A DNA stretch of 64,000 nucleotides from Polaribacter sp. SA4-12 (GTDB lineage Bacteria; Bacteroidota; Bacteroidia; Flavobacteriales; Flavobacteriaceae). The number at the start of each line of letters is the position of its first letter. The stretch's first letter is position 1. The position numbers and the translations under genes are program-made. The notes beneath the pieces were generated by a model. It searched no databases, was not told the DNA's origin, and saw only the letters and a program-made list of their open reading frames with translations. The stretch is from positions 2,771,501 through 2,835,500 of the forward strand of contig NZ_CP019334.1 of NCBI RefSeq assembly GCF_002163675.1, given 5' to 3'. Positions 5,987 through 27,112 of this stretch are shown piece by piece.

Positions 5987-6030
5987 CTGATTGGGGTCAT
6001 TGGTGTAAGTTTTTAATTTTAATAATTTAG
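5987..6030 (+). promoter_or_regulatory. FNR/CRP-like operator plus -7 box of the lipoprotein/dehydrogenase operon
   Basis: Operator CTGATTGGGGTCAT at 5987-6000 (dyad TGAT-N4-GTCA). A -7 box TAATTTAG lies at 6023-6030, its end exactly 36.5 bp from the operator centre. The start point would be near 6035, 15 bases before the ATG. Confidence 0.72.
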
Positions 6031-6049
6031 GAGATGAAAACAAAATACC

Positions 6050-6688
6050 ATGAAAAACTTCATATACCTTTTAGTGATAACAATCTTTTTTAGCTGTTCA
6101 TCAATTAAAACAATAGACAGTTGGAAAAGTAAAAACCATGCAGATTTTAAACCTCAAAAAGTATTAATTATTGGAATTACAGAAAACTTAACAGCAAGAA
6201 GAATCTTTGAAGAGGAATTAAAAGAGGAGCTAAATTTGAAAGGTATTGAAGCCAGAGAAAGCTATGAAATGTTTACACCTAAATTTACAAATGAAAAACA
6301 AACAGAAGAAAATATTCAGGAAGAAATAGAAAAAATTACTAAAAATGGTTTTGATGCAATATTAATTTCTGCTGTTAAAGGAGTAGATGAAGAAGTAAGC
6401 TACAATAATAATTATTACACCAATTATTATTACAGAAGACACCCTTTTAGACGTTATTATTATTTAAATCAAGCCGTATATTTTGATACAGGTTATTATA
6501 ATAAATATAAAATTTATCACGTAGAAACTTCATTATACAAACTAAAAGAAAATAATGATAAATCGTTAGTCTGGGTTATTTCCAATAAAATAATAGAACC
6601 TAGTTCAATAAATACAACTGTTAACGAATATGTAAACGTTATTATTAAATCCTTAAAAAAAGAAGGCATCATTGCATCTAACAAATAG
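6050..6688 (+). CDS. Putative lipoprotein, paralogue of the 27630-28271 gene
   Basis: A 212-residue protein with a lipoprotein signal (MKNFIYLLVITIFFSC, Cys16) and a compact domain. Shared marks with the second copy in this window are IDSWK/VERWK, KVLIIGITENLTARRIFEEEL, YHVETSLY and PSSI-x-TV. The main difference is a tyrosine-rich insert (about 122-145). The repeated pattern suggests a small envelope-anchored alpha/beta domain of unknown function. It is the first gene of an operon with the dehydrogenase (6-bp gap) under an FNR-like promoter. Confidence 0.72.
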   Translation: MKNFIYLLVITIFFSCSSIKTIDSWKSKNHADFKPQKVLIIGITENLTARRIFEEELKEELNLKGIEARESYEMFTPKFTNEKQTEENIQEEIEKITKNGFDAILISAVKGVDEEVSYNNNYYTNYYYRRHPFRRYYYLNQAVYFDTGYYNKYKIYHVETSLYKLKENNDKSLVWVISNKIIEPSSINTTVNEYVNVIIKSLKKEGIIASNK

Positions 6689-6694
6689 TTACTC

Positions 6695-7705
6695 ATGAAA
6701 ACACTTATATACAGTGCTAAAGATTTTGAAATTCCTTATTTAGAAAAAGCGAATTGTAAAAAACATAAATTTACTTTTTTAGAAGAATCATTGTCCTCAG
6801 AATCTGCAATGAAAGCTATTGGGTATAAAGCCATTTCAATCTCTTCAGCAGATGAAGCTTCACCAATTGTAATAGAAAAATTAAAAGATTTTGGAGTAGA
6901 ATATATCACTTTAAGATCTGTAGGACATGATAATGTAAATTTAAACTCAGCAAATACAATTGAAATAAGAGTTGCAAACGTACCCGCTTACTCACCTTAT
7001 GCAATTGCAGAACATGCTGTGGGTTTATTATTAACACTAAATAGAAAATTAATTGAATCAAATAAGAGAGTAAAATCGTTCAATTTTGATTTAAATCATC
7101 TTATTGGTTTTGATATAAACGAAAAGACAGTTGGTATTATAGGTACAGGTAAAATAGGTGCTATTATTACTAAAATAATGCATGGTTTTGGATGTGAATT
7201 ATTGGGTTGTGATGTTGTTAAAAATGAAGAATTAACAAAAAAATATGGAATGCAATATCAGTCTTTGGAAGCTCTTTGTAAAAACTCAGATATTATTTCA
7301 CTACATGTACCTTTAAATAGTGAAACGCATCATTTAATTGATAAAAATTTAATTGATAAAATGAAACCTGGTGTTGTAATAATAAATACTGCAAGAGGTG
7401 CCGTTTTAAATACAAAAGATGTTATTAAAGGTTTAGAAAGGGGAATCATTGGAGCTTTAGGAATAGATGTGTATGAAAAAGAAAGAGGATTATTTTTTAC
7501 AAATCATTCTAATGATATTATTACAGATGAAATGATTATTAAATTAAACGCAATGCCTAATGTACTAATTACAGGTCATCAAGCTTTTTTAACTGATGAA
7601 GCGCTAACAAATATTGCAGAAACAACCATTTATAATTTAGATTGCTGGAGTAAAAATGGAGTAACAGAAAATGAACTAACAAAGATTGTTAGTAAGAAAA
7701 AATGA
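6695..7705 (+). CDS. ldhA: D-2-hydroxyacid dehydrogenase, probably fermentative D-lactate dehydrogenase
   Basis: A 336-residue cytosolic NAD-dependent dehydrogenase of about LdhA length. Visible marks: the nucleotide loop GIIGTGKIGAIITK (about 145-158), catalytic Arg in NTARGAVLNT, Glu in the GLGIDVYEKE-like segment (ALGIDVYEKERG) and catalytic His in TGHQAFLTDEAL. The extended loop ERGLFFTNHSNDIITDEM is typical of the D-lactate dehydrogenase branch rather than of phosphoglycerate dehydrogenase. The reaction would be pyruvate + NADH to D-lactate, which regenerates NAD when respiration is limited and fits control by an FNR-like site. It ends flush against the convergent L,D-transpeptidase gene. 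Substrate is inferred. Confidence 0.82.
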   Translation: MKTLIYSAKDFEIPYLEKANCKKHKFTFLEESLSSESAMKAIGYKAISISSADEASPIVIEKLKDFGVEYITLRSVGHDNVNLNSANTIEIRVANVPAYSPYAIAEHAVGLLLTLNRKLIESNKRVKSFNFDLNHLIGFDINEKTVGIIGTGKIGAIITKIMHGFGCELLGCDVVKNEELTKKYGMQYQSLEALCKNSDIISLHVPLNSETHHLIDKNLIDKMKPGVVIINTARGAVLNTKDVIKGLERGIIGALGIDVYEKERGLFFTNHSNDIITDEMIIKLNAMPNVLITGHQAFLTDEALTNIAETTIYNLDCWSKNGVTENELTKIVSKKK

Positions 7706-8626
7706 TTATTTCTTACTGTAACCATAAATATCTTTTAAAATTATATTACCACCATTAACAGAATCTTTAATTATTAAATCATATCTAATTATTATTTTAG
7801 TGTTTATTGGCGCGTAATAATAAAGTATCCAAATATCTGTTTCGTTCGTACCAATGCAACCATTAGAATAGGCTTTTCCTAATGTTTTAGGATTTGTTGT
7901 TGGGTGTATTAATTGTCCATAACGTAAACCATTAATTTCAGTTTCTATAAAAGGAATTTGAGGTAATTTTGTTACTTTTTTATCATCTCTATTTGTTAGA
8001 TAATATTGATGTCCGTTAGCAGGATTATAGAAATCAGGAAAACGCTCGTGTCTTACAATTGTACCTTCTCCAGTTTTGGTTCTTAAATCTAAAACTCTTC
8101 CTGCCATTTTAAGATACTTTTTTTGATTTCTTCCAACTCTAACAGAAAAACTAAAAAGTTCTTCAGAGTTTTCAAAAATCCGAAGTTTAAATTCAGGGAT
8201 ATTTATATCAATTTTAGTGTTCTCAAATGAAGTATATATTTTCTTTGCTAATTTAGAGTCTGGTAGTATTAGTTGATCTCCTTTTTTTAAAACTATCATT
8301 TTTTTCTGATTATAAACAAAAGAATCTTTTTCTTTCATTAGATAATAATCAGTGTTTTTTAAGGTATTAATAATCCAGGGATTTGCTCTTACTAAAAGGT
8401 GTTCTGTTAATTTGTAGGTGGTTAAAGAATCATATTTTATAACAATAGAATCTAAAAACTGAAAATAATTTTCTACAGTAATATCTTTTTTAACTTTTAT
8501 TTTTTTCGGTGAAATAGTACGAATTATAATATTTTTTATTTGAAGAGGAGCAAAAGTATTTTTAGCACTAATATTAAAACATATTAGCAAAAAGATAATT
8601 ACAGAAAATTTTATTTTATGTCTCAT
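7706..8626 (-). CDS. L,D-transpeptidase (YkuD domain)
   Basis: A 306-residue exported protein with a signal peptide (about 1-21) and a C-terminal YkuD domain (about 140-280). The active-site signature is visible as a His in RYGQLIHPT and the nucleophile in YSNGCIGTNE, where the common S-H-G-C is S-N-G-C. These enzymes make 3-3 cross-links in peptidoglycan or attach proteins to it, in the periplasm. A segment about 60-125 before it may be a LysM-like wall-binding region (KGDQLILPD). It is transcribed alone from an FNR-like promoter, which points to wall hardening in the same state as the other island genes. Confidence 0.87.
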   Translation of the reverse strand: MRHKIKFSVIIFLLICFNISAKNTFAPLQIKNIIIRTISPKKIKVKKDITVENYFQFLDSIVIKYDSLTTYKLTEHLLVRANPWIINTLKNTDYYLMKEKDSFVYNQKKMIVLKKGDQLILPDSKLAKKIYTSFENTKIDINIPEFKLRIFENSEELFSFSVRVGRNQKKYLKMAGRVLDLRTKTGEGTIVRHERFPDFYNPANGHQYYLTNRDDKKVTKLPQIPFIETEINGLRYGQLIHPTTNPKTLGKAYSNGCIGTNETDIWILYYYAPINTKIIIRYDLIIKDSVNGGNIILKDIYGYSKK

Positions 8627-8655
8627 TTCTTCAATGAATTAGAAACGTTCTTTAG

Positions 8656-8699
8656 CTAAGTTATGTTTAATAAAAGAGGGTTCAAATGATTAATATCAG
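8656..8699 (-). promoter_or_regulatory. FNR/CRP-like operator plus -7 box of the L,D-transpeptidase gene
   Basis: On the reverse strand the operator reads CTGATATTAATCAT (8686-8699) and the -7 box TAACTTAG (8656-8663), with the same 36.5-bp spacing. The predicted start near 8651 gives a 24-base leader. The gap 8627-8944 holds only this and the divergent mla promoter. Confidence 0.74.
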
Positions 8700-8879
8700 T
8701 CACCTTAAATTATAGTGAGTTAAAACTTCTTTATCGGTTAATTTTTTTTACAATTTTACCTTTTCCCAAAAGAAGTTTATTATTTCATTGAGCACATTTA
8801 GAAAGTAAATCTGAATTTTATCAAAATTAAAATGAAGCAAAATTGTTATTCTTAAAGTGAAGTATATCAACATAGTAAT

Positions 8880-8923
8880 ATGATGATTGTCATTTGATAC
8901 ATAGTTGATTTAGAATATATTTG
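8880..8923 (+). promoter_or_regulatory. FNR/CRP-like operator plus perfect -7 box of the mla operon
   Basis: Operator ATGATGATTGTCAT at 8880-8893 and TATATTTG, a perfect TAnnTTTG, at 8916-8923; spacing is again 36.5 bp from centre to box end. The start point near 8928 lies 17 bases before the ATG at 8945 and rules out a TTG start at 8921. Confidence 0.78.
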
Positions 8924-8944
8924 GTAGAAGTATATATTAAACGA

Positions 8945-10500: not shown

Positions 10501-10515
10501 TTTAAATTTTAATAG

Positions 10516-11505: not shown

Positions 11506-11589
11506 AACTAGTAAAATAAAGTTAAGTGTCAAAATCATATTCCTCTCTATCCAAAAAAGGGTATCTCGCCTAATAAATAGCTTAAAATT

Positions 11590-11682
11590 AAGAAATGATT
11601 AAGTTCGTAATTCTAACTTAATCTTTTAGAGCTAATAAAAGATGATGAAAATCATTTCAGAATTACTATTTAATCATTTCTT
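11590..11682. repeat. Nested inverted repeat between mlaD and the next gene
   Basis: The outer arms AAGAAATGATTAA (11590-11602) and TTAATCATTTCTT (11670-11682) are a perfect 13-bp inverted repeat. Inside are a second pair, GTAATTCT (11607-11614) and AGAATTAC (11658-11665), and a third, CTTTTA and TAAAAG. A shorter alternative hairpin GATTAAGTT/AACTTAATC (11597-11623) ends in TTTT and could terminate the mla mRNA. An FNR-like dyad lies inside the structure. It could be a terminator, an mRNA-level switch or a degraded MITE-like element. Confidence 0.6.
11643..11656. promoter_or_regulatory. FNR/CRP-like operator without a matching -7 box
   Basis: ATGATGAAAATCAT is a perfect TGAT-N4-ATCA dyad in front of the 11724 gene, but 36.5 bp downstream there is no TAnnTTTG-like box (TATCTTAA appears 7 bp further on). 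It also lies inside the nested inverted repeat. It may act differently from the other operators, or be accidental. Confidence 0.45.
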
Positions 11683-11723
11683 TTATATCTTAATAAAAAA
11701 CTTTTTTATTAAAGAAACAGATT

Positions 11724-12230
11724 ATGAAAATAGAACATTTAGAAGAGCGCGTTAATGACTATAGAAAATCTATTAAAACAGTTGTTGATAAAAAGACACA
11801 ATGGGAAAATAGTACTAAAAAATTAATAATTAAGACCTTAAAAAATACTGCTAAAAATTATAGTATAGGTTGGAAAGTACAAGAACTCAATTGGATTTAC
11901 AACAATGAAGCTGTAAATATTATATTTGATTCTTTTCCTTCAGATCTTATTGATTGTACAAATAAGATTCCTGCATATCAATTTATACAAGGAGGCGCAT
12001 TAGTTTTTTCACAATCTTATAGTGGAGATGTGTATGTGTTGGTTCTTTTTCCTTTTGTAGATCAATTACAATTAGAAAACACTAGCTTAGATCTTGGAGT
12101 CTATAATCCTACAGAAATTACAGTGAAACTTATTGTTGAAAAAGTAGACGAGTTTTTAAAAGAAATGATAAAATGGGAAGTTCCATCTTATAGAGCCAAG
12201 TTAGGTTTTCAACATAATGTAGATATATAA
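11724..12230 (+). CDS. Conserved hypothetical protein
   Basis: A 168-residue soluble protein not recognised from any named family. It starts with a basic helical region (about 1-48, EERVNDYRKSIKTVVDKKTQWENSTKKL) followed by a mixed beta region with hydrophobic strands (GGALVFSQSYSGDVYVLVLFPFV, about 91-113) and a final helix (KLIVEKVDEFLKEMIKWEVP). No signal peptide or membrane segment. It lies between the mla operon and the FMN-binding gene in the stress island, behind a possible FNR-like site, so a stress-related role is only inferred. Confidence 0.6.
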   Translation: MKIEHLEERVNDYRKSIKTVVDKKTQWENSTKKLIIKTLKNTAKNYSIGWKVQELNWIYNNEAVNIIFDSFPSDLIDCTNKIPAYQFIQGGALVFSQSYSGDVYVLVLFPFVDQLQLENTSLDLGVYNPTEITVKLIVEKVDEFLKEMIKWEVPSYRAKLGFQHNVDI

Positions 12231-12264
12231 TTTTTATAGACACTATCTTAAAAACGGTGAAAGT

Positions 12265-12729
12265 TTAAGAATATTTTCTTGTAATTTCTTTACCCGTCAT
12301 TTCATCAATAGTTATTTTAAATATAATAGGAATCTTTTGAGTATTTACTTTATGTGAAAAATCGCTAATACAATCTAAGTTTTTTTCTTCTTTTCTTAAG
12401 ATAAGATTTTTAATACCCTTTGTAAATTCATGTAAATATTTTTTTGCTTCAGAGCCAGAAAATTCTTTATAAAGACCATGAACCAAAACAGAATTGCAGT
12501 TATCATTGTTTTCTTTTTCTGAAACATGTAGAGAAACTTTTCTGTATTTTCTCATCGACATTGTTTTGTGTCCATTTTCTGAATAACCAATAATAATATG
12601 ATTTTCCTTATCAAAATAATAAGTCATTGGTACAATAAAAGGTCTGCCAATATAAATATAACCAAGTTGACCTACATAATTATTTGCTAATAGGTTTACA
12701 CATTTATTGTCTTTTAAATCAGTTATCAT
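12265..12729 (-). CDS. Pyridoxamine 5'-phosphate oxidase-like FMN-binding protein (Nim-like)
   Basis: A 154-residue split-barrel flavin-binding protein. The N-terminal LLANNYVGQLGYIYIGRPFIVPMTYYFD (about 13-40), GYSENGHKTMSMRKYRKVSLHV (about 48-69) and VLVHGLYKEF match the Nim/PNPOx-like group. Such proteins bind FMN, F420 or haem and reduce small electrophiles. It is preceded by an FNR-like promoter on the reverse strand. A detoxifying role under low oxygen fits the island; the real substrate is unknown. Confidence 0.8.
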   Translation of the reverse strand: MITDLKDNKCVNLLANNYVGQLGYIYIGRPFIVPMTYYFDKENHIIIGYSENGHKTMSMRKYRKVSLHVSEKENNDNCNSVLVHGLYKEFSGSEAKKYLHEFTKGIKNLILRKEEKNLDCISDFSHKVNTQKIPIIFKITIDEMTGKEITRKYS

Positions 12730-12756
12730 AGTGCAATTTTTAGGTAAAATGAGTTG

Positions 12757-12800
12757 CTAAGATATTTTTAATACAATAAAATAAAAATGATGTAGATCAG
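12757..12800 (-). promoter_or_regulatory. FNR/CRP-like operator plus -7 box of the PNPOx-like gene
   Basis: Reverse-strand operator CTGATCTACATCAT (12787-12800) and box TATCTTAG (12757-12764), centre to box end 36.5 bp. The predicted start near 12752 gives a leader of about 23 bases. Confidence 0.74.
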
Positions 12801-12810
12801 TTTGGTAAAT

Positions 12811-14028
12811 TTATTTTTTCAGTAACTCAAATACTGTAATTTCTGGTCTCATTCCTAATCTACCAGGAAAACCATGCCAACCTAAACCACGATTAACGTA
12901 TAAATACTGTTCATTTTTATGATACAATCCTGCCCAATGTTTGTATTTGTATTTAATAGGGCTCCATTTCATTTTTTTATATTGAAAACCAGCTTGCATT
13001 CCATGTGTATGACCAGAAAGGGTTAATGAAATAGTTGTTTTCTGTATAACTTCTTCTGTCCAATGTGAAGGGTCGTGAGATAATAATACTTTAAAAGGAA
13101 TTGCTGCAACATTATTTAGCGCTTTGTTTAGGTTTCCATATTGTTTAAAAGGTGGTTTTCCCCAATTTTCAACTCCAATTATTGCTATTTTTTGTTGATT
13201 TAACTCAATTATTTCAGATTGATTTAACAAAAGTTTGAAATCAATATTTTTATAAAATCGTTTTATTTTTTCAAAATTATCTTGCTTTTCTTCTGTAGAA
13301 TTCCATTGACTATAATCTCCATAATCATGATTCCCTAAAACTGAATATTTACCTTGTTTTGCTTCTAATTTTTCGAATACTTTTTTCCAACCTCTTAATT
13401 CCCAAGCATAATTATTAACCAAATCTCCAGTAAAAAATATAAAGTCTGGTTTAGAATCGTTAATTATTTTAATAGCTTTATCTAAAATGCGATACTTAAA
13501 ATTAAAACTACCTAAATGAAGATCTGATATTTGAACAATTTTTAAGCCGTTAAAAGAAGTTGGTAGGTTTTTAAATCTAATAGTAACATGATGTACTTTA
13601 AATCTGTATAAAGACCTAAAAACACCATACATAATTACAAAAAAGGGAAGAAACCCAGAAAACAAACCAATAACTGGAACAATAATTAATGATTCTTGTT
13701 CCGAAAAGACATAGTTAGAAAAAAACAGTATTGAAATTACAACAACAAATATAAATTTAGGAACAAAAGAAGAAATAGTTAATCCGTATAAAGAAGAAAC
13801 TAATAGGTGTTTTCTCTTTGGATTTATATCATCTAAAGTAACTTTAAGAATTATTATTAAGGCGATTAAACCAATCGTAAAAATCCAGAAAATTACATTT
13901 ATTGTAGTTTTTAGAATTTCTGAAGTGATCAATTGTGTAATAGATTGTAGCCAATAAAAAGCTAAAGTATCTACAATGAAAATTGCGAAACACAATAGTG
14001 AAATTGTAAATAAAGAGTAGCTTTTCAT
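12811..14028 (-). CDS. Membrane-anchored metallophosphoesterase
   Basis: A 405-residue protein with about four N-terminal membrane helices (1-145) and a calcineurin-like phosphoesterase domain (about 155-395). Metal-binding motifs are all present: ISDLHLGS, FTGDLVNN, LGNHDYGD, LLSHDPSHW and LSGHTHGMQ. The fold matches the YkuE/YaeI branch, which cleaves phosphate bonds such as those of UDP-diacylglucosamine or nucleotides near the membrane. It follows the CDP-alcohol phosphotransferase with a 6-base gap, so both are likely expressed from the promoter at 14635-14678. Substrate unknown; a lipid role is suggested by its partner. Confidence 0.87.
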   Translation of the reverse strand: MKSYSLFTISLLCFAIFIVDTLAFYWLQSITQLITSEILKTTINVIFWIFTIGLIALIIILKVTLDDINPKRKHLLVSSLYGLTISSFVPKFIFVVVISILFFSNYVFSEQESLIIVPVIGLFSGFLPFFVIMYGVFRSLYRFKVHHVTIRFKNLPTSFNGLKIVQISDLHLGSFNFKYRILDKAIKIINDSKPDFIFFTGDLVNNYAWELRGWKKVFEKLEAKQGKYSVLGNHDYGDYSQWNSTEEKQDNFEKIKRFYKNIDFKLLLNQSEIIELNQQKIAIIGVENWGKPPFKQYGNLNKALNNVAAIPFKVLLSHDPSHWTEEVIQKTTISLTLSGHTHGMQAGFQYKKMKWSPIKYKYKHWAGLYHKNEQYLYVNRGLGWHGFPGRLGMRPEITVFELLKK

Positions 14029-14034
14029 AAGAGA

Positions 14035-14619: not shown

Positions 14620-14634
14620 TTTTGTTTTTTTTGA

Positions 14635-14678
14635 TAAAAATAGGAGATATTATTCTTTTGGAAAATGACAAACATCAC
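14635..14678 (-). promoter_or_regulatory. FNR/CRP-like operator plus -7 box of the phosphatidyltransferase operon
   Basis: On the reverse strand GTGATGTTTGTCAT (14665-14678) and TATTTTTA (14635-14642), again 36.5 bp from centre to box end. The predicted start near 14630 leaves only about 10 bases before the ATG. The outer base of the operator deviates, so it is one of the weaker copies. Confidence 0.65.
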
Positions 14679-14737: not shown

Positions 14738-15031
14738 TTAATCTTCATAAAAACGTAATTTATTTTTTAATATTAGAATTTCGTCTTGCAAAGAGGTTAC
14801 TTGTTTTAAAAGCCCAGAAATTACATCAACTCCTTCTAAATTTATATTGAGATCATAATGTAAACGAATTATTTTTTCTACTTTATTAATCTGCGTTATT
14901 TTTATATAATCTTCATTGTCTTCTACAATAGTTTCTATTAATTCGTATTCTTTTAATTCGTTCATAAAATGAATAGGAATACTATAATGTTCACAAAAAC
15001 GCTGTATAGATATTAAATTTTGAGTTTCCAT
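14738..15031 (-). CDS. cbpM: Chaperone modulator CbpM-like protein
   Basis: A 97-residue protein with a MerR-like helical start (LISIQRFCEHYSIPIHFMNELKEYELIE, about 5-32) and a C-terminal coiled coil (VTSLQDEILILKNKLRFY). It lies 2 bases after the cbpA stop, the usual arrangement. CbpM binds the J domain of CbpA and tunes its co-chaperone activity in stationary phase. Assigned from context and the helical pattern. Confidence 0.8.
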   Translation of the reverse strand: METQNLISIQRFCEHYSIPIHFMNELKEYELIETIVEDNEDYIKITQINKVEKIIRLHYDLNINLEGVDVISGLLKQVTSLQDEILILKNKLRFYED

Positions 15032-15033
15032 AA

Positions 15034-15918
15034 TTAGCGTAGTTTTTGTAATTCTTTAATTAATTCTATTTCTTTTTCGGTTAATTTGGTAGGAATTTTA
15101 AGTTGATATGTTATATACAAATCACCAAACTGACCTTCTTTTTTGTATTTAGGAAAACCTTTGCCTTTTAACTTAACTTTAGCTCCGTTTTCTGTTTCTG
15201 GCTTAATTGTAAGTTTCACTTTTCCATCAAAAGTATCAACCATTAATTCTCCTCCCAATAAAGCAGTATATAAATCTAAATCTATTGTTTGGTGTAAGTT
15301 GTTATGGTCTCTTTTAAATTTTGTGTTGTTTATTATTGAAAACTGAATGTATAAATCTCCATTCGGACCATTATTTACACCTTTTCCTCCATGACCTTTT
15401 ATTTTAATAGTTTGCCCGTTTTCTACTCCTGCAGGAATTGTAATTCTAATATTTTTTCCATTAACAGTAATAACTTGTTTTTGAGTTTTGTAAACATCTT
15501 TTAAACTTAATTGAATCTCAGAGTTGTAATCTTGCCCTCTAAACCTAGCGTTTGTTCTTCTTCCGGATGAAGCACCTCCAAATATGTCTCCAAATATGTC
15601 AGAAAAATCTTCTTGAGAATATCCACCAGAAGAACCTTGTGAGCTTCTTTGATATTGTTGTTGCCGTTGTTTTTCTTGTTCATAAGCCTCTCCATTTTTC
15701 CAATGCTCACCGTATTTATCGTATTTCTTACGGTTTTCTGGATTGCTTAAAACTTCATTTGCTTCATTAATTTCTTTAAATTTTTTTTCAGCAGTTTTAT
15801 TATTTGGGTTTAAATCTGGATGGTATTTTCGCGCCATTTTTCTGTAGGCTTTTTTAATATCACCCTCAGAAGCACTTTTAGTAATTCCTAATATTTTATA
15901 ATAATCTACAGATGCCAT
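15034..15918 (-). CDS. cbpA: DnaJ-family co-chaperone CbpA
   Basis: A 294-residue J-domain protein: J domain at 1-70 with YYKILGI and the HPD motif ([10 protein letters not shown]), a Gly/Ser/Gln-rich linker (about 75-120), then the C-terminal substrate-binding domains (about 125-290). There is no Cys-rich zinc finger, which separates it from DnaJ. It stimulates DnaK ATPase and, in some bacteria, binds curved DNA. It lies between the WG-repeat gene (8-base gap) and cbpM and is clearly in one operon with them. Confidence 0.93.
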
Positions 15919-15926
15919 TGATTAAG

Positions 15927-16653: not shown

Positions 16654-17061
16654 TTACTTTTTAAATTCAATACTAAGTCTTGCAACTAGCATTAATTCCG
16701 ATTTATTTAAATCGGCAACAGAAGCAGCTATCTTTGTAGCTGTTTGTAGAATAAGACTTTTAATACTTTTTGTAAACAAAGAAGGATGCTCGTTTTTAAA
16801 CTCTAAAAACTCATTATAACAAGTTTCAGAATTAGAAAAACCTTCATTATTTAACCAATCAAAAACGGTTTCTATTTTATATGCTGCATCAGAATGAAAA
16901 TCATCATCAATAGAATCAATTTTAGTCCATTTATTTTTTACTATTTCTTTTAAAACATTAAATTCAATTTCTTCAACAACATTATCTGCTGCAGCTACTG
17001 CATAAAATAATTTACCAAGATTTTCATAAAAAGAAATAACTGTATTTTGTGAAGGTTTCAT
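16654..17061 (-). CDS. TerB-like helical protein
   Basis: A 135-residue, all-helical cytosolic protein. The N-terminal YENLGKLFYAVAAADNVVEEIEFNVLKEIV (about 11-41) has the TerB pattern of a helix with A-A-A-D before an acidic turn, usually a metal site. Members of this family are linked to stress responses and tellurite resistance clusters but lack a defined activity. It has its own FNR-like promoter on the reverse strand. The operator lies between it and the kinase gene. Confidence 0.68.
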   Translation of the reverse strand: MKPSQNTVISFYENLGKLFYAVAAADNVVEEIEFNVLKEIVKNKWTKIDSIDDDFHSDAAYKIETVFDWLNNEGFSNSETCYNEFLEFKNEHPSLFTKSIKSLILQTATKIAASVADLNKSELMLVARLSIEFKK

Positions 17062-17086
17062 AACCTTATGAATTTATGAATATGAG

Positions 17087-17130
17087 TAAAGTTAAAATAT
17101 TAGATGTTATTAAATTATGACTTAAGTCAT
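17087..17130 (-). promoter_or_regulatory. Perfectly palindromic FNR/CRP-like operator plus -7 box of the TerB-like gene
   Basis: ATGACTTAAGTCAT (17117-17130) is a perfect palindrome. On the reverse strand TAACTTTA (17087-17094) sits exactly 36.5 bp from the centre, and the predicted start near 17082 lies 21 bases before the ATG. The site is also 72 bases upstream of the kinase start, so the two-component operon could be autoregulated, but no box in the forward direction matches. Confidence 0.74.
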
Positions 17131-17201: not shown

Positions 17202-18443
17202 ATGCTAAATAAAGAGCAAGATATTTTTAACGTACTTTTTGAAGCAGTCTCTGAAGGTGTTGTGGTTGTTGATGATCAGCAAAAAATAGTTTCTGTAAAT
17301 ACTTCTGTAGAAAAAATGTTTGGTTATGAGAAAGATGAACTTGTTAAACAAAAATTAGATATTTTAATTCCTAAAAATTATCATGCTGGTCATGGAGCTC
17401 ATTTTAATGGGTTTATGAAAAATAAGGAAAAAAGGCAGATGGGAAATGGGAGAGATCTTTATGGTGCTCGAAAAAACGGAGATGTTTTTCCTTTAGAAGC
17501 AGGTTTAAATCCGTTTGAAATTTACGGAAAAACGTTTGTAATGGCTTTAGTTATAGATATTTCTGTTAGAAAACAACAAGAACAAGAAATCTATAAATTA
17601 AATGAAGAGCTAGAAAAGAAGGTTAATGAAAGAACAAAAGAGTTAAGTAAAACCGTTAATGAGTTAAAGGTTGTAAATGTTGAGTTAGATGAAGAAAACC
17701 AAAAAAGAATTGAAGCGGAGAATCAAATAAAAGATGCTCTAAAGAAAGAAAAAGAATTGAATGAATTAAAGACAAAGTTTTTGTCGTTAGTTTCTCATGA
17801 ATTTAAGACACCTTTAAGTGGTATTTTAACATCTACAATGTTGTTGGGTAAGTATAAATTAGCGGAACAACAAGAAAAAAGAGATAAGCATTTAGAAACT
17901 ATTACCAATAAAGTTCATTATTTAAATAATATTCTAAATGACTTTTTATCTGTCGAAAAATTAGAAACAGGTAAAATAAATTATAAATTTCAAACATTTA
18001 AACTAAGTAAAGTTGTAGATGAGGTAATTTATAATGCAAATATGCTTTTAAAAGGAGGACAAAGAATTAAATATCCAGAGGATATAGGCGAACTTTCTTT
18101 AACGCAAGATGAAAAAACAATAGAACTAGCTTTATCTAATTTAGTAAATAATGCTATTAAATATTCGCCAGAAAATACAGAGATTAACATCAACATACAA
18201 CAAGATAATAAGTTTACTACTTTTAAGATTATAGATAAAGGAATTGGAATTCCGAAAGCAGATCAGAAAAATATATTTAATCGTTATTTTAGAGCAGAAA
18301 ATGCTTTATTAAGTCAAGGAACAGGAATTGGTTTAAATATTATTAAAAGCCATTTAGAAAATTTAGGAGGAACTATTACCTTTGAAAGCGAAGAGAATGT
18401 AGGTTCTACTTTTACGATGAAGATTATTAATAAAGCAAAATGA
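17202..18443 (+). CDS. Soluble PAS-domain sensor histidine kinase
   Basis: A 413-residue kinase without membrane segments. Order: PAS domain (about 8-125), coiled coil (126-185), dimerisation/phosphoacceptor region with His199 in SLVSHEFKTPLSG, and ATPase domain (about 285-412) with N box NLVNNAIKYSPE, G1 DKGIGIP and G2 GTGIGLNI. The PAS domain is of the FixL type: His64 in KNYHAGHGAHF aligns with the haem ligand of FixL and Arg84 in GNGRDLYG with its distal arginine. This fit is also seen in many PAS domains without haem, so oxygen sensing is only a hypothesis. The gene overlaps the regulator by 4 bases (ATGA). Confidence 0.9.
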   Translation: MLNKEQDIFNVLFEAVSEGVVVVDDQQKIVSVNTSVEKMFGYEKDELVKQKLDILIPKNYHAGHGAHFNGFMKNKEKRQMGNGRDLYGARKNGDVFPLEAGLNPFEIYGKTFVMALVIDISVRKQQEQEIYKLNEELEKKVNERTKELSKTVNELKVVNVELDEENQKRIEAENQIKDALKKEKELNELKTKFLSLVSHEFKTPLSGILTSTMLLGKYKLAEQQEKRDKHLETITNKVHYLNNILNDFLSVEKLETGKINYKFQTFKLSKVVDEVIYNANMLLKGGQRIKYPEDIGELSLTQDEKTIELALSNLVNNAIKYSPENTEININIQQDNKFTTFKIIDKGIGIPKADQKNIFNRYFRAENALLSQGTGIGLNIIKSHLENLGGTITFESEENVGSTFTMKIINKAK

Positions 18444-19489
18444 GAAAAATACTATTAATTGAGGATGATGTAGTTTTAAGAGAAAACACTTCAGAACTTT
18501 TAGAATTATCAAACTACGAGGTTGTTAATGCACCCAATGGTAAAATTGGTGTAGAAGTAGCAAAAGAAACATTGCCAGACATTATTGTTTGTGATATTAT
18601 GATGCCAGAACTAGATGGTTATGGTGTGCTAGAAGCTTTAACTAAAAACGAAAGTACCCAACATATTCCTTTTATATTTTTATCTGCAAAAACAGAAAGA
18701 AAAGATGTTAGAAAAGGAATGGATTTAGGAGCTGATGACTATATAACGAAACCTTTTAGCGAAGACGAATTGATAAGCGCTATAGAAAGTAGGTTAGCAA
18801 AAGCATCCATCCTAAAAGATCTTAGAGAAAAAAAAGACGAAAATAAAGAAGATACAGAAGCCTTAAGAAGTCTTAATGATTTAAAAAATTATTTTGAAGA
18901 TAATGGAGAAACTTTTCGTTATGCTAAAGAAACAAGTATATATAAAGAAGGTAAAAACTCTAATTATATTTATTTAATAACTAGTGGACTCATAAAATGC
19001 CATAAGTTAGACGAGCAAGGAAAACAACTTACTACTGCTTTGTATAAAGAAGACGATCTGTTTGGTTACACATCTTTTAGTCAAAATTTAGCGTATCAAG
19101 AATCTGCAACTACAATTCAGGAAACAGAATTAGTAGGTCTTTCTAAAAAAGCACTAACAAACGTTTTAGATAAAAACCATAAAGTAACTTTAGAATTAAT
19201 AGAGTTGTTAACAGAAGATTTGGCAATTGTAAAAGACCAACTTTTACAAATGGCTTATAGTTCTGTAAGTAAAAAGACAGCAAATACAATTTTAATGTTT
19301 GCAGAAAAACTAAATCGAAAACCAGAAGAGCAAATAAAAATTTCTAGAAACGATTTAGCTAGTGTTGCTGGTATTGCAACAGAAACATTAATTAGAACAA
19401 TGTCTAGCTTTAAAAAACAAGGTATCATTGAGATTGAAGGCAGAACTATTAGAATTTTAGACCTAGAAAAACTAAAAGAAATCTGCTGA
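18440..19489 (+). CDS. Response regulator with CRP/FNR output domain (REC-cNMP-HTH)
   Basis: A 349-residue regulator: receiver domain (1-122) with acidic pair Glu8/Asp9/Asp10, phosphoacceptor Asp52 in IVCDIMMPELDG, Ser82 and Lys104 in ITKPF; linker; cyclic-nucleotide-binding-type beta barrel (about 150-265); and a CRP-type winged helix (about 295-345). The recognition helix reads GIATETLIRTMSSFKKQG, with the Glu and Arg that contact TGA half-sites in FNR and CRP. It lacks the Cys cluster of FNR, so its signal should come by phosphorylation from the kinase. It is the natural candidate for the TGAT-N4-ATCA operators on both sides. Confidence 0.93.
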   Translation: MRKILLIEDDVVLRENTSELLELSNYEVVNAPNGKIGVEVAKETLPDIIVCDIMMPELDGYGVLEALTKNESTQHIPFIFLSAKTERKDVRKGMDLGADDYITKPFSEDELISAIESRLAKASILKDLREKKDENKEDTEALRSLNDLKNYFEDNGETFRYAKETSIYKEGKNSNYIYLITSGLIKCHKLDEQGKQLTTALYKEDDLFGYTSFSQNLAYQESATTIQETELVGLSKKALTNVLDKNHKVTLELIELLTEDLAIVKDQLLQMAYSSVSKKTANTILMFAEKLNRKPEEQIKISRNDLASVAGIATETLIRTMSSFKKQGIIEIEGRTIRILDLEKLKEIC

Positions 19490-19511
19490 TATTGATATAA
19501 TTACGGTCGAT

Positions 19512-19555
19512 ATGACCAATATCATTTTTTAAAATGCCCTATAACTATAAATTTG
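19512..19555 (+). promoter_or_regulatory. FNR/CRP-like operator plus perfect -7 box of the first USP gene
   Basis: Operator ATGACCAATATCAT (19512-19525) and box TAAATTTG, a perfect TAnnTTTG (19548-19555), 36.5 bp from centre to box end. The start near 19560 gives an 18-base leader. Confidence 0.78.
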
Positions 19556-19577
19556 TCTATTACAAAGATGAATTTTA

Positions 19578-20420: not shown

Positions 20421-20432
20421 AAACAATAAGTT

Positions 20433-20819: not shown

Positions 20820-20830
20820 TCAAAAAATTA

Positions 20831-20893
20831 TTCCTCTAGGCTTCTGCCCGAGGTTTCTATTGAAATTGTCATTTCCGTAAAAACGGGAATCTA
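20831..20893. repeat. Dispersed intergenic repeat / hairpin
   Basis: Two hairpins follow each other: TTCCTCTAGG/CCCGAGG (about 20831-20852), which may also terminate the USP transcript, and ATTTCCGT/ACGGGAAT (about 20871-20890), part of the widespread GTCATTTCCGT..ACGGGAATCT repeat type. Confidence 0.6.
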
Positions 20894-20916
20894 TAATAAC
20901 TTAAAACACCATAAAG

Positions 20917-21219: not shown

Positions 21220-21266
21220 ATTAAATACAGGTTTAAATATTCATTAATTAAAAAAACTTTCTTAAT

Positions 21267-21310
21267 CTGATGAATGTCATTGTCTTATTGTAAATATAGG
21301 TGTAGCTTTA
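21267..21310 (+). promoter_or_regulatory. FNR/CRP-like operator plus -7 box of the second USP operon
   Basis: Operator CTGATGAATGTCAT (21267-21280) and box TAGCTTTA (21303-21310), 36.5 bp apart as elsewhere. The start near 21315 lies 19 bases before the ATG at 21334, which settles the start codon against an upstream ATG at 21274. Confidence 0.78.
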
Positions 21311-21333
21311 GGTACGCCTTAAATATACTTACA

Positions 21334-22182
21334 ATGAAAAAGATATTAATTCCTATCGATTTTTCAGAAAATGCAATAAATGCTATCAATTATGCTTTTG
21401 CATTATTTAAAGATGAGTTCTGCAAGTTTTATATTTTACATGCATATCAAGAAGATATTTATTTAGGTAAACCTCCTATTACTAAAGAAGTCATTAAAGA
21501 GGTTATTAGAACTGTAGGTAAAGACTCTCAATTACAACTAAAAAACACGCTAAAGCTAATTAAGAAGCTTTCGCCAAATTCTAAACATGTGTTTAAAATT
21601 TTATCTGCCAATAACATTCTTGTTGATGAGGCAGATAAAGTTGTGGATGAAAAAAATATAGATCTCATTATTATGGGAACTCATGGTAAAACAAATGATA
21701 AAGAACGAACCTTTGGAAGCCATACTTTACAGGTTTTAAAATATGTTAAATGCCCTGTTTTGGTTATTCCAGAAAATTATTCTTATAAAAAACCAAATCA
21801 TATTCTTTTTGCTACAGATTATAGCATGCCTTATCAACAAAGAGAGTTAGAGCTTTTAAATAAAATTGCTTTAGATAATAGTGCTATAGTAGATATACTC
21901 CACATTTCAGACGATAATTATTTATCTCTTAGACAAGAAGCCAACCGATCTTTTATTAAAGAAAATCTAAGAAATAGAAAGGTTCATTTTAAAATTACAA
22001 AAGATAAAAATATTGCAAACGAAATTTACTCGTACATAAAAAATTATGAAACAGATATTCTAGTTATGATAAATAGAAGACATTCTTTTTTAGAAAATAT
22101 TCTATTTCAAGATAATGTAGATAAAATAAGTTTATCCATAGATATTCCTTTTTTGGCGTTACAAAATATGAGACGGAATTAA
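21334..22182 (+). CDS. Universal stress protein, two tandem Usp domains
   Basis: A 282-residue protein beginning MKKILIPIDFSENAINAI. The first Usp domain has GTHG-x9-GS (GTHGKTNDKERTFGS) followed by CPVLVIPE; the second begins ILFATDYS and lacks the glycine motif. The start at 21334 is taken because a longer reading from 21274 would begin inside the promoter. It is followed after 21 bases by another USP, in one operon. Confidence 0.93.
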   Translation: MKKILIPIDFSENAINAINYAFALFKDEFCKFYILHAYQEDIYLGKPPITKEVIKEVIRTVGKDSQLQLKNTLKLIKKLSPNSKHVFKILSANNILVDEADKVVDEKNIDLIIMGTHGKTNDKERTFGSHTLQVLKYVKCPVLVIPENYSYKKPNHILFATDYSMPYQQRELELLNKIALDNSAIVDILHISDDNYLSLRQEANRSFIKENLRNRKVHFKITKDKNIANEIYSYIKNYETDILVMINRRHSFLENILFQDNVDKISLSIDIPFLALQNMRRN

Positions 22183-22203
22183 TAAATTATTAAAACATAT
22201 ATC

Positions 22204-23043: not shown

Positions 23044-23044
23044 A

Positions 23045-23088
23045 CTGATTGAGGTCATTTTGTTTTTTTTAATCATTAGTTAATTTTA
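23045..23088 (+). promoter_or_regulatory. FNR/CRP-like operator plus -7 box of the fourth USP operon
   Basis: Operator CTGATTGAGGTCAT (23045-23058) starts just after the previous stop; box TAATTTTA (23081-23088), spacing 36.5 bp. The predicted start near 23093 gives a 22-base leader. Confidence 0.76.
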
Positions 23089-23114
23089 TACCAGAATCTA
23101 TAACAAAACAAATT

Positions 23115-23969: not shown

Positions 23970-23980
23970 AAACAGATAAG

Positions 23981-24388
23981 ATGAAAAACATAGGAATTTG
24001 GTTAGACAAAGACAAAGCACTTATTTTTAAATTAACAGATGATATGGAAGTGTTTGAAACAATTATATCGAACATAGAAAACTTTCATATTCATGGAGGA
24101 TCTGGAACACGTTTTAAAGGAGGACCTCAAGATGTAATACAGGATAGTAAATATTTAGAAAGAGAAAAGCATCAATTTAAAGCATATTTTAAAGAAATAG
24201 CTTTAGAAATAGAAAATGCAGATGGAATTCTAATTTTTGGACCAGCAGAAGCAAAAGATAAATTAAAAAAAGAATTAGAAGACTCTTATAAAGATATTAA
24301 TGCAAAAGTAAAAGCTGTTCAAATAGCAGATAGTATGACAGACAATCAAGTAAAAGCATGGGTTAGAGATTTCTTTAAATCGAACTAG
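23981..24388 (+). CDS. Conserved protein with eRF1-like (baeRF-type) features
   Basis: A 135-residue cytosolic protein. It starts IGIWLDKDKALIFKL, has a Gly-rich stretch HIHGGSGTRFKGG (about 37-49), a charged helix KYLEREKHQFKAYFKEIA and a strand-turn ILIFGPAEAKDKLKKEL (about 86-102), a pattern recalling the second domain of eRF1/Pelota-like bacterial proteins. That would fit a translation-related role, but the similarity is only by eye. It lies 11 bases after a USP gene and is probably in its operon. Confidence 0.55.
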   Translation: MKNIGIWLDKDKALIFKLTDDMEVFETIISNIENFHIHGGSGTRFKGGPQDVIQDSKYLEREKHQFKAYFKEIALEIENADGILIFGPAEAKDKLKKELEDSYKDINAKVKAVQIADSMTDNQVKAWVRDFFKSN

Positions 24389-24416
24389 TTTGTTTATAAT
24401 TTTTTGATTTTTAAAT

Positions 24417-25268
24417 ATGAATGATAAAGACATAGATATCATAAAATATTCTGGAGAAAAAGTAAAGTTTTCTACTAATAAGCTATATGCTTCATTAAAA
24501 AAAACGGGTGCAGAAGATGCTATTATAAATCAAATTATAGATAAAGTAAGAGACGATTTATATCAAGGTATATCAACAAAAGAAATTTATAATAGAGCCT
24601 TTTCGTTACTCAAAAAGAAGAAAAGTTATTTTGCTTCTAAATACAAACTTAAAAAAGCTATTTACGAATTAGGACCAACTGGTTTTCCTTTTGAAAGGTT
24701 TGTTGCCTCAATTTTAAAATATTCTGGATACAACATAGAAGTAGGAACAATTTTAAACGGTAAGTGTGTTGCTCACGAAATAGATGTTATTGCAAAGAAA
24801 AACAATGAAACTACAATTGTAGAATGTAAGTTTCATGGAGAGCAAGGTCTTAATTGTAACGTTAAAGTTCCTTTATACATTAACTCTCGTTATTTAGATG
24901 TGGAGGCACAATGGGATAAAAGCACAAAAAATAAAAATAAATTAATAGAATGTTGGGTGGTAACTAATACTAGATTTACAAAAGACGCATTAGCATACGG
25001 TAAATGTTGTGGTTTGTATTTATTAAGTTGGGATTACCCAAAAGATGATGCTTTAAAAGACAGAATAGATCGTTTAGGATTGTACCCAATAACAGTATCT
25101 ACATTACTTACAAATAGAGAAAAACAGTTTTTATTAAATAGAAATATCGTTTTATGTAGAGAATTAATAAATGACGTTTTTTACTTAGACCATTTAGAGA
25201 TTTCTACAACCAGAAAAGAAAAAATATTAAATGAAATAAAGCAGTTGTGTAACGGTAAAAATCACTAA
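24417..25268 (+). CDS. ATP-cone and restriction endonuclease-like fusion protein
   Basis: A 283-residue protein with two domains. Residues about 5-85 are an ATP-cone (IIKYSGEKVKFSTNKLYASLKKTGA and GISTKEIYNRAFSLL), the nucleotide-sensing module known from ribonucleotide reductase and NrdR. Residues about 95-200 have the PD-(D/E)xK nuclease pattern: EIDVIAKKNNETTIVECKFHG with the Asp and Glu-x-Lys residues in place. The remaining part (200-283) may be helical. This suggests a nuclease regulated by ATP/dATP level. Two bases before the RNase-like gene, so both are translated together. Confidence 0.72.
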   Translation: MNDKDIDIIKYSGEKVKFSTNKLYASLKKTGAEDAIINQIIDKVRDDLYQGISTKEIYNRAFSLLKKKKSYFASKYKLKKAIYELGPTGFPFERFVASILKYSGYNIEVGTILNGKCVAHEIDVIAKKNNETTIVECKFHGEQGLNCNVKVPLYINSRYLDVEAQWDKSTKNKNKLIECWVVTNTRFTKDALAYGKCCGLYLLSWDYPKDDALKDRIDRLGLYPITVSTLLTNREKQFLLNRNIVLCRELINDVFYLDHLEISTTRKEKILNEIKQLCNGKNH

Positions 25269-25270
25269 AA

Positions 25271-26644
25271 ATGGAACATTTTGTAAAAGTCAAATTTTTG
25301 GGAGCTTCAGGTGTTGTAACTGGCTCAAAATTTATTATTGAAACTTCAGAAAAAAATATACTTATAGATTGTGGTATGTTTCAGGGGGTTAAAGAACTTA
25401 GAGAGCTTAATTGGAAAAACTTATCTGTAAATGTAAAAGAGATTGATGTTGTATTATTAACTCATGGTCATTTAGATCATGTTGGTTATTTGCCAAGATT
25501 GGTAAAACAAGGTTTTAAAGGCAAAATTATTGGTACAGCACCAACATTAGCTATTGCTCAGATTATTTTGAATGACAGTGCTAAAATTAACGAGGAAGAA
25601 GCAGAAAAAGCAAACAAAGAGCAGTATTCTTCTCATAAACCTGCTTTACCATTTTACACAATTGAAGAAGCAGAAAAAACAATAAATCAATTTGAAGTAG
25701 AAGTAGAAAATAAGTGGATTGTTTTATCAGAAAACATTAAATATCGTTTTCAATATAATGGTCATATTATCGGCGCAACTTTTATAGAATTAGATATTAA
25801 TCGAAAACGTTTTGTATTTTCTGGAGACATTGGTAGAAGTAACGATTATCTTTTAGAAGACCCAAAAACTCCTGAATGGGCAGACTATTTATTTCTTGAA
25901 AGTACCTACGGTAACAAACTGCATCCAGAAGAAGATGTTGAGCGTAAACTAGCAAATATTATTAGAGACACTATTCAGAATAAAGGAAACCTTATTATTC
26001 CGAGTTTTGCAGTAGAACGCTTGCAAACATTGATGTATATTTTATGGAAATTGTATAAGGAAAATAAGATTCCTAATATTCCAATATTTGTTGATAGCCC
26101 AATGGGAAATAGAGTTTTAGATGTTTTTAAACGCTTTCCTAATTGGCATAAGTTATCGATGGAATCGTATAATGAAATGTGTAATCACATAAATATTATT
26201 CAATCTTATAAAGAAACCTGGGAAACGATTGATAATAAAAGGTCTAAAATAGTTATTGCTGGAAGCGGAATGGTAACAGGAGGTAGAGTGTTAACTTATT
26301 TACAACAATTAATAGAAGAACCTTCTACAACTGTTTTATTAGTTGGTTATCAAGCAGAAGGAACTCGTGGAAGACAATTATTAGAAGGTGCTCATGAAAT
26401 TCGTATTTATGGCAAATATTATCCTATAAAAGCAACTATTATAAGTATAGATAGTTTATCAGCTCATGCAGATCAGCAAGATTTGTTAAACTGGGTAAAA
26501 AATATTAAAAATATTCCAGAAAAAGTATTTTTAATTCATGGAGAGCCAACTGCTTTAGATGCTTTTCGAGTAAAAATAAAAGACACTTATAATTGGAATG
26601 TAGTTATCCCTAAACTAGATAGTATTGAAGAGGTGATGGTTTAA
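25271..26644 (+). CDS. MBL-fold beta-CASP ribonuclease-like protein
   Basis: A 457-residue protein with a metallo-beta-lactamase core (FLGASGVVTGSKFII, LTHGHLDHVGYLPRL, FSGDIGRSN), a beta-CASP insertion (about 195-375: LESTYGNK, IIPSFAVERLQ, AGSGMVTGGRVLTYL) and a C-terminal motif SAHADQQDL plus LIHGEPTALDAF. This is the CPSF73/YSH1-type arrangement of RNA nucleases. It would cut or trim RNA in the cytosol. In many bacteria similar genes sit next to USP and ATP-cone genes, as here. Confidence 0.9.
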   Translation: MEHFVKVKFLGASGVVTGSKFIIETSEKNILIDCGMFQGVKELRELNWKNLSVNVKEIDVVLLTHGHLDHVGYLPRLVKQGFKGKIIGTAPTLAIAQIILNDSAKINEEEAEKANKEQYSSHKPALPFYTIEEAEKTINQFEVEVENKWIVLSENIKYRFQYNGHIIGATFIELDINRKRFVFSGDIGRSNDYLLEDPKTPEWADYLFLESTYGNKLHPEEDVERKLANIIRDTIQNKGNLIIPSFAVERLQTLMYILWKLYKENKIPNIPIFVDSPMGNRVLDVFKRFPNWHKLSMESYNEMCNHINIIQSYKETWETIDNKRSKIVIAGSGMVTGGRVLTYLQQLIEEPSTTVLLVGYQAEGTRGRQLLEGAHEIRIYGKYYPIKATIISIDSLSAHADQQDLLNWVKNIKNIPEKVFLIHGEPTALDAFRVKIKDTYNWNVVIPKLDSIEEVMV

Positions 26645-26659
26645 TTAATACTTAATAAA

Positions 26660-27076
26660 ATGGAGGCAAAAAACAGTTATAAATGCTTTAATGAAAATAA
26701 ATCTATTGAAGAATTAAAGTATAATATGCTTCAATTTAAAACAAGAATAGAAGAAGAAATTATTGAATATAAATTTTATAAGAATCTCTTAGAGGCATCA
26801 ATTTATAAATCAAAAACAATCAATTTATTTGAAAACTTAGAGAAGTATAAGAAAGGTATTAATGCCACAGAAAAAGAAGCTTTAGAGTTATTAAAAGAAA
26901 TTAATTTGCACTCAAACTCAATTACAAATAAAATTGAATGCCAAGACTTGTTTTGCGATAATTTTTTTATAAAAGGTCATGATAAATTAGAAGAAAAAAC
27001 TCAAAAATTCTTTATTGAATGTACCAGTTTTAAAATTCAATTATTTCAATATCTAGAAAGTGTGTTAAAAGGTTAA
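26660..27076 (+). CDS. Helical hypothetical protein
   Basis: A 138-residue protein of helical composition with coiled-coil tendencies (ELKYNMLQFKTRIEEEIIEYKFYKNLLEA, about 18-47; HDKLEEKTQKFFIE, about 113-126). It is not recognised. It follows the RNase-like gene by 15 bases. It resembles the 27168 product in overall helix pattern and could be a distant paralogue. Confidence 0.55.
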   Translation: MEAKNSYKCFNENKSIEELKYNMLQFKTRIEEEIIEYKFYKNLLEASIYKSKTINLFENLEKYKKGINATEKEALELLKEINLHSNSITNKIECQDLFCDNFFIKGHDKLEEKTQKFFIECTSFKIQLFQYLESVLKG

Positions 27077-27098
27077 ATTTCAAAAACAATGTAACAAT

Positions 27099-27112
27099 CT
27101 GATATTTATCAT
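27099..27112 (+). promoter_or_regulatory. FNR/CRP-like operator before the 27168 gene
   Basis: CTGATATTTATCAT is a perfect TGAT-N4-ATCA dyad 56 bases upstream of the start. No -7 box at the common spacing is visible (the nearest is TAAAAGTTTCG at 27137), so its use is less certain than that of the other operators. Confidence 0.5.

Follow-up and report, generated by a model that had tools for sequence, protein, structure and literature searches.

Operators at a fixed distance from promoter boxes surround a receiver-CRP regulator gene in Polaribacter sp. SA4-12

In Polaribacter sp. SA4-12, a stretch of 64,000 nucleotides (contig NZ_CP019334.1, positions 2,771,501 to 2,835,500 of the forward strand; the window in the following, numbered from its first letter) carries repeated copies of the dyad TGAY-N4-RTCA, most of them between genes and gathered around the adjoining genes of a PAS histidine kinase and a response regulator. 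This raises the question whether these dyads are the operators of one regulatory system and, if so, which protein uses them, upon which signal and with which effect. Based on sequence comparison, we consider it likely that they are operators of the receiver-CRP regulator 18440-19489, which would be switched by the FixL-like PAS kinase 17202-18443 and would activate transcription in class II fashion. The two proteins at the centre of this proposal are:

17202..18443, plus strand: PAS histidine kinase, probable sensor, with a FixL/DosP-like PAS part that contains His64 and Arg84
18440..19489, plus strand: response regulator, candidate regulator, composed of a receiver, a cNMP-binding fold and HTH_Crp_2

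Operators and promoter boxes in the window

The window contains 14 copies of the dyad TGAYNNNNRTCA compared to 3.8 ± 1.9 after shuffling, and none of 100 shuffles reaches 14. Eleven of the dyads had been pointed out by an earlier sequence-only reading of this DNA, with positions that mostly fall one base before TGAY, and all eleven exist: the exact 12-mers start at 5988, 8687, 8881, 11643, 12788, 14666, 17118, 19513, 21268, 23046 and 27100. That nearly all of them are intergenic holds for ten, and the eleventh (21268) reaches only into the overextended 5' end of the mechanically called open reading frame 21274-22182, which encodes a universal stress protein (Usp). Since the Usp domain begins about 20 residues into this frame, ATG 21334 is the better start. 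Further dyads at 7087, 36358 and 47412 are located within reading frames. As the complete 3.99-Mb genome contains 343 dyads versus 212 matches of the reversed control, the window represents a hotspot.

For the spacing we used the box pattern TANNTTNR and tested each dyad in both orientations, which gives 28 oriented dyads. A box starts exactly 23 bp downstream in nine of these, corresponding to a box end 31 bases past the dyad and to the nine cases of fixed spacing already described, and the next best spacing is found three times. The chance expectation at 23 bp is about 0.18 (28 times a box density of 0.0064). In 300 dinucleotide shuffles of the window the count at this distance has a mean of 0.07 and never exceeds 2, and the top count over all spacings from 5 to 49 is never above 3. 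The combination of dyad and box, termed composite in the following, is thus not matched at random.

According to start mapping in Flavobacterium psychrophilum, the sigma-A box TAnnTTTG occupies positions -12 to -5 (PMC9723704). Together with the 23-bp gap, the 12-bp dyad would therefore extend from -47 to -36. By this transfer from the mapped starts of a relative, all nine window composites would have a TGA-N6-TCA dyad centred at about -41.5, the class II position that the sequence-only reading had proposed. With the start set at box end +5, the leaders up to the ATG measure 11-25 nt in nine of nine composites, in agreement with the 10-25 bases estimated before, and 10-25 nt in 255 of 301 cases (median 18) in the loci of 80 relatives introduced below. 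The sites of the window, with predicted start points, are as follows:

5988..6030, plus strand: operator 5988-5999, box TAATTTAG 6023-6030, +1 at 6035, ATG 6050; followed by 6050-6688 (no Pfam match) and the D-2-hydroxyacid dehydrogenase gene 6695-7705
8656..8698, minus strand: operator 8687-8698, box TAACTTAG 8656-8663, +1 at 8651, ATG 8626; YkuD L,D-transpeptidase-like gene 7706-8626
8881..8923, plus strand: operator 8881-8892, box TATATTTG 8916-8923, +1 at 8928, ATG 8945; MlaE-like gene, then ABC ATPase and MlaD-like genes
11643..11654, plus strand: dyad with TTCTTTTA at the 23-bp position, one mismatch to the box; gene at 11724; uncertain member
12757..12799, minus strand: operator 12788-12799, box TATCTTAG 12757-12764, +1 at 12752, ATG 12729; pyridoxamine-oxidase-like gene 12265-12729
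14635..14677, minus strand: operator 14666-14677, box TATTTTTA 14635-14642, +1 at 14630, ATG 14619; CDP-alcohol phosphatidyltransferase gene, then metallophosphatase gene 12811-14028
17087..17129, minus strand: operator 17118-17129, box TAACTTTA 17087-17094, +1 at 17082, ATG 17061; gene 16654-17061 for a protein of 135 aa without Pfam match
19513..19555, plus strand: operator 19513-19524, box TAAATTTG 19548-19555, +1 at 19560, ATG 19578; Usp gene directly 3' of the regulator gene
21268..21310, plus strand: operator 21268-21279, box TAGCTTTA 21303-21310, +1 at 21315, ATG 21334; Usp genes
23046..23088, plus strand: operator 23046-23057, box TAATTTTA 23081-23088, +1 at 23093, ATG 23115; Usp gene, closely trailed by genes up to 27076 (ATP-cone, beta-CASP)
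27100..27111, plus strand: dyad without a box at 23 bp; gene at 27168; uncertain member

Based on gene order, the genes behind one operator may share a transcript. The 'TerB-like' label once given to 16654-17061 is not backed by any Pfam match up to E = 1, and the site that corresponds to 27100 in a relative (L008, 18661) does have a box. Besides the proteins listed, Pfam detects MerR_2, DnaJ, four Usp in all and S30AE (Hpf-like) in the window. The MerR_2 gene and the DnaJ gene are neighbours at 14738-15918, downstream of the 17118 operator and on the same strand, and resemble the CbpM-CbpA pair. Dyads that serve two divergent promoters were also considered and dropped, as boxes on both sides occur at 6 of 501 dyads with about 3 expected.

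Recurrence of the composite in related genomes

Because box and spacing had been picked from the window itself, other loci provide the independent tests. From 521 confirmed stretches that match the regulator we took the best 80 (64-92% identity over the best segment), which cover 1.6 Mb and contain 487 dyads versus 64 reversed controls. A box at 23 bp accompanies 356 oriented dyads, while every other spacing yields between 2 and 23, and at least one composite is present in 80 of 80 loci and at least three in 50. As these loci are related and their counts are not independent, we used three further sets: (a) twenty hand-picked receiver-CRP loci, 18 of them outside the family, (b) thirteen family loci with the receiver-CRP fusion in genomes without a hit to an FNR-like query at E ≤ 1e-30, which are all such cases among 80 sampled genomes, and (c) forty even blocks of the own genome amounting to 800 kb or 20% of its length.

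In set (a), we found 75 dyads versus 21 in the control and 20 boxes at 23 bp, distributed over 12 of the 20 loci, with a related kinase in every locus. Set (b) has 60 dyads versus 8, with 41 boxes at 23 bp and never more than 3 at another distance, and 12 of the 13 loci share the architecture, as do all 80 named loci. In the genome sample of set (c), 7 of 110 oriented dyads carry the box at 23 bp with about 1 expected and no other spacing above 3; four of these seven precede the start of an open reading frame within 250 bp. The description as a local regulon is therefore correct with regard to the cluster but not in the sense that composites are confined to it. In line with clustering at the regulator gene, composite density in 71 full-length loci drops from 0.48 per kb in the nearest 1 kb around the fusion gene to 0.11 per kb at a distance of 9 kb, compared to the 7 composites in the 800 kb of set (c).

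These counts also bear on chance or base composition as the origin of the composite. The dyad can exceed expectation without the box, as in the family genome G316, where MTGAYN4RTCAT is found 62 times versus 4 times for the reversed control and a box stands at 4 of 40 dyads. However, the sharp 23-bp peak in the window and in the sets of 80, 20 and 13 loci, the smaller peak in the genome sample and the shuffles led us to reject this explanation, whose probability is negligible.

From 354 distinct composite sites we derived the consensus (A/C)TGAY-N4-RTCAT, with a T after the right arm in 98% and before the left arm in 5% of the sites. With regard to the first description, the flanks have to be amended to (A/C)TGAY...RTCAT, not to TTGA...TCAA. 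The only enrichment in the interval that separates operator and box is a T-rich stretch at -34 to -30. For the sign of regulation, the position alone is not decisive, and a protein bound at -41.5 may also repress. However, hundreds of sites share one and the same class II register, and the T-rich stretch fits an activator that takes over the role of the -33 contact; both points argue for activation and make repression highly unlikely.

A second register was observed in 8 of the 20 distant loci, where 12 oriented dyads have the box 45 bp downstream. Their centre would then lie at -63.5, further upstream than the class II site by two helical turns. Apart from 23 and 45 bp, no spacing exceeds 4 in these loci, and the 45-bp spacing does not stand out in the 80 closer loci (10 cases). 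Six of the sites, directly or via a tandem site, precede small genes (122-134 aa or with a similar start), one of the 12 precedes a Usp-like gene, and two precede what we take to be a dehydrogenase-like gene. Tandem dyads 22-23 bp apart stand before one box at L131 (9271/9293), L136 (6055/6033), L138 (8126/8104) and L144 (8348/8325), and in each of them the downstream dyad occupies the 23-bp register. In L142, a fusion with the helix ETVSR is accompanied by a single composite (10693) that has GTGA...TCAC instead of (A/C)TGA...TCAT flanks, which is a hint from one locus that helix and flank may co-vary.

The regulator, its kinase and other candidate proteins

Protein 18440-19489 had already been named as the candidate regulator, and it keeps this role, not as a plain FNR/CRP protein, but as a receiver-CRP fusion beside a FixL-like kinase, a make-up that the earlier reading had left unmentioned. 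It is one of seven HTH_Crp_2 matches in the genome, together with a second receiver-CRP fusion (L003), the protein L002 and four others, and its nearest named relatives are found in Polaribacter. Among the 60 best of 248 PDB sequences that match the whole regulator, each covers either the receiver or the Crp part and none covers both. Asp52, the phospho-acceptor, and Lys104 of the receiver are invariant in 81 of 81 aligned sequences, as are its acidic pair and Glu315 and Arg319 of the recognition helix. The kinase gene adjoins in 78 of the 80 loci, and in the other two the regulator gene begins less than 200 bp from a contig end. These features are those of a response regulator. In the best-matching CRP/FNR-type PDB chain, 4cyd, presumably a CRP of the cAMP type, the Glu and Arg of the cAMP pocket align with Tyr210 and Tyr219 of the regulator, so that a switch by cAMP is unlikely; moreover, Arg is not among the commonest residues at positions 219-221 of the 81 sequences. 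FNR proper does not fit either, as the N-terminus is a receiver domain and the three Cys are scattered.

For the PAS part of the kinase, all 13 PDB hits at E ≤ 1e-8 belong to the heme sensors FixL or DosP (YddU), the best with 1.6e-13. His64 aligns with the FixL histidine, which we take to be the heme ligand, and Arg84 with an arginine that is presumably the distal residue. Of the 79 aligned kinases, 77 have the histidine and 64 have Arg84, and an equivalent histidine is present in 18 of the 20 distant kinases. Homology and residues thus agree with a FixL-type sensor with a proximal histidine, and oxygen sensing is likely. In an alternative reading of the same circuit, the kinase responds to another signal (redox state, nitric oxide, flavin or light via PAS) and the regulon is not oxygen-controlled. 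We consider this possible, although somewhat unlikely: the case for heme comes from sequence and the distal residue varies, but the putative heme histidine is kept almost throughout and cbb3 oxidase genes are among the targets in relatives.

Taken together, the kinase would phosphorylate the adjacent regulator, and the phosphorylated dimer would bind (A/C)TGAY-N4-RTCAT centred at -41.5 and activate the housekeeping sigma factor at the TAnnTTTG box in a class II fashion. The most likely user of the window operators is the fusion, with a possible contribution of its paralogue, and elsewhere FNR-like proteins seem able to employ this operator code as well. In 80 family genomes, the ratio of MTGAYN4RTCAT dyads to control has a median of 2.20 with the fusion (33 genomes) and 1.34 without it (47 genomes; p = 0.0004). 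Separated further, it is 2.2 with the fusion only (17), 2.4 with both types (16), 1.41 with an FNR-like protein only (32) and 1.27 with neither (15), and the comparison of the last two groups gives p = 0.26. As kinship is ignored and G316 has so few boxes at its dyads, this ratio is a weak proxy and indicates only a trend. The 14-mer MTGAYNWATRTCAT is uninformative in the own genome (6 versus 7 reversed).

As a negative control we used Usp genes in 15 family genomes without either regulator type, 12 of which have a Usp match, with loci available for 30 of the 32 matches listed. Three composites were found, all in G342, a genome that is 82% complete. Counted as distinct Usp starts, a composite precedes 0 of 5 outside G342 and 2 of 4 within it, compared to 19 of 41 in the 13 loci of set (b) and 150 of 233 in the 80 loci. 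Fisher tests give p = 0.067 (0/5 versus 19/41) and p = 0.015 (2/9 versus 150/233), both with small numbers and underpowered.

Several observations weigh against the fusion and its kinase as the general explanation. The dyads 11643 and 27100 of the cluster have no perfect box, 8 of the 20 distant loci lack a composite, the distal Arg is found in only 6 of the 20 distant kinases, and G316 combines two fusions with its low number of boxes. Besides, relatives contain standalone FNR-like proteins with a nearly identical recognition helix, and some are rich in dyads without any fusion. The operators may thus mainly belong to a standalone FNR-like regulator, with the fusion only nearby or sharing a subset. 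In support of this, the fusion-less, dyad-rich genomes G356, G314, G302 and G371 encode standalone Crp proteins in which an N-terminal pair of Cys is combined with TATESxIR or IASESLIR as the helix, and in G371 (L155, 1001 and 1745) composites precede both the FNR-like gene and the Usp-like gene after it. The layout in G371 repeats the fusion-operator-Usp order of the window, with the FNR-like gene in the place of the fusion. The own genome encodes L002 (256 aa, N-terminal cysteines), whose locus has two composites in 20 kb, with the box at 2 of 8 and 0 of 2 oriented dyads. On the other hand, the architecture is kept around the fusion in 12 of the 13 loci of set (b), the dyad ratio tracks the presence of the fusion more closely than that of the FNR-like protein alone, and the helix of L002 differs (EEQVIR). 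Set (b) does not remove all competitors, because an HTH_Crp_2 check of four of its genomes revealed other standalone Crp proteins (helix-domain scores of ~50 bits) in G301 and G350, with none in G316 and G335. Overall, we regard a mainly FNR-like user as quite unlikely.

The second fusion also has to be considered, alone or jointly with the first. L003 is encoded at 1.81 Mb (locus L128, 1801001-1821000 of the own genome) directly behind its own kinase gene, has a similar helix (TATETAIR), and a box at 23 bp accompanies 5 of the 14 oriented dyads in this region, a further point that weighs against an exclusive role of the first fusion. Nevertheless, the cluster surrounds the first fusion and composite density declines with distance from its orthologues, so that use of the window operators by L003 or by both fusions is unlikely.

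Target genes and comparison with known systems

As targets we counted the first genes of at least 60 codons behind composites in the window and the 80 loci, which gives 342 genes; 23 sites have no such gene. Usp accounts for 172 of them, in 78 loci, followed by the 135-aa family (34), FixS-like (17), pyridoxamine-oxidase-like (15), Hsp20 (14) and WG-repeat (13) proteins. Smaller clusters comprise Hpf-like proteins (5), the kinase itself (5), MlaE (4) and CcoN/FixO (4), and many small clusters and singletons complete the set. The labels outside the window derive from Pfam on one representative per cluster, with a match in nine of ten. The CcoN/FixO representative begins about 200 nt downstream of its site, perhaps behind a short gene, and a further protein that we take to be HemN-like is recognised by Pfam only as radical SAM.

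Such a set would fit energy stress, probably survival at low oxygen. The window contributes Usp, envelope and lipid genes to it, and the relatives add genes for cbb3 oxidase, Hsp20, Hpf and HemN-like proteins. As the pattern recurs beside the same regulator/kinase pair in many relatives, it is probably the mark of a response to low oxygen or energy stress that these bacteria have in common. The best reading of the locus is a putative relay of the FixL-FixJ-FixK type compressed into two proteins. Its extension to the Bacteroidia as a whole is, in our estimate, evenly balanced between right and wrong: here, a FixL-like heme kinase would read low oxygen or energy limitation and phosphorylate a receiver-CRP fusion in which the FixJ and FixK steps are merged, phosphorylation would replace the cAMP or Fe-S trigger, and a strict -41.5 register on TAnnTTTG would be joined by -63.5 in distant lineages. 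If this is true, the composite becomes a readable code that predicts responsive operons in public flavobacterial genomes and makes low-oxygen control in flavobacteria directly testable. It would also provide a case of a three-step relay that has become two proteins, and of a CRP-fold activator switched by phosphorylation and not by a small ligand.

Class II promoters of FNR and CRP in E. coli combine the dyad core TGA-N6-TCA, a centre at -41.5 and a recognition helix with Glu and Arg, and all three elements have their counterpart here. In contrast, the regulator has neither the N-terminal Fe-S cysteines nor the Glu and Arg of the cAMP pocket and carries a receiver instead, and the promoter is of the Bacteroidota TAnnTTTG type. 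The flanks TTGAT-N4-ATCAA of FNR proper also differ from those of the 354 sites. DosR is a LuxR-type regulator, whereas the output here is of the Crp type. The DosR regulon and the lxa locus of Burkholderia nevertheless resemble our targets in their clustered Usp and Hsp20/alpha-crystallin genes, several Usp, Hsp20 and Hpf-type genes (172, 14 and 5 of 342) being placed behind one operator here; low-oxygen induction is described for those systems, and excerpts of the same source tie the lxa locus to a FixK-like CRP protein that is subject to FixLJ in a relative (PMC6127331).

The closest parallel is FixL-FixJ-FixK of the Alphaproteobacteria, which likewise uses a heme PAS kinase, a receiver and a CRP/FNR-family output at TGA-N6-TCA (PMC4999443, PMC6515984). 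The microoxic proteins of Bradyrhizobium, as excerpted, include Usp, DnaJ, MlaE and cbb3 and resemble our target set (PMC6515984). In contrast, FixJ and FixK are separate proteins linked by fixK transcription, whereas here receiver and CRP output reside in one protein and no intermediate FixK is needed; the FnrN/FixK consensus is given as TTGANCNNGATCAANG (PMC4999443), compared to (A/C)TGAY-N4-RTCAT in our case.

Sigma-A promoters of F. psychrophilum share TAnnTTTG at -12 to -5 and short leaders (median 24 there), and a term search of that main text for FNR, CRP and universal stress retrieved nothing; the part consulted describes no operator of the present kind (PMC9723704). The terms CRP and cNMP do not occur in the text of a survey of two-component proteins (PMC4558063), nor does CRP in that of PMC6365647. 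PMC1183210 excluded DNA-binding response regulators and PMC8510549 applied a MalR matrix to its Flavobacteriales and Saprospiraceae genomes. Searches of open papers, judged by titles, abstract beginnings and selected passages, turned up no account of this operator, of its spacing or of a regulon under a receiver-CRP protein in Bacteroidota. Compared with all these systems, the parts are of known kinds and their combination is new.

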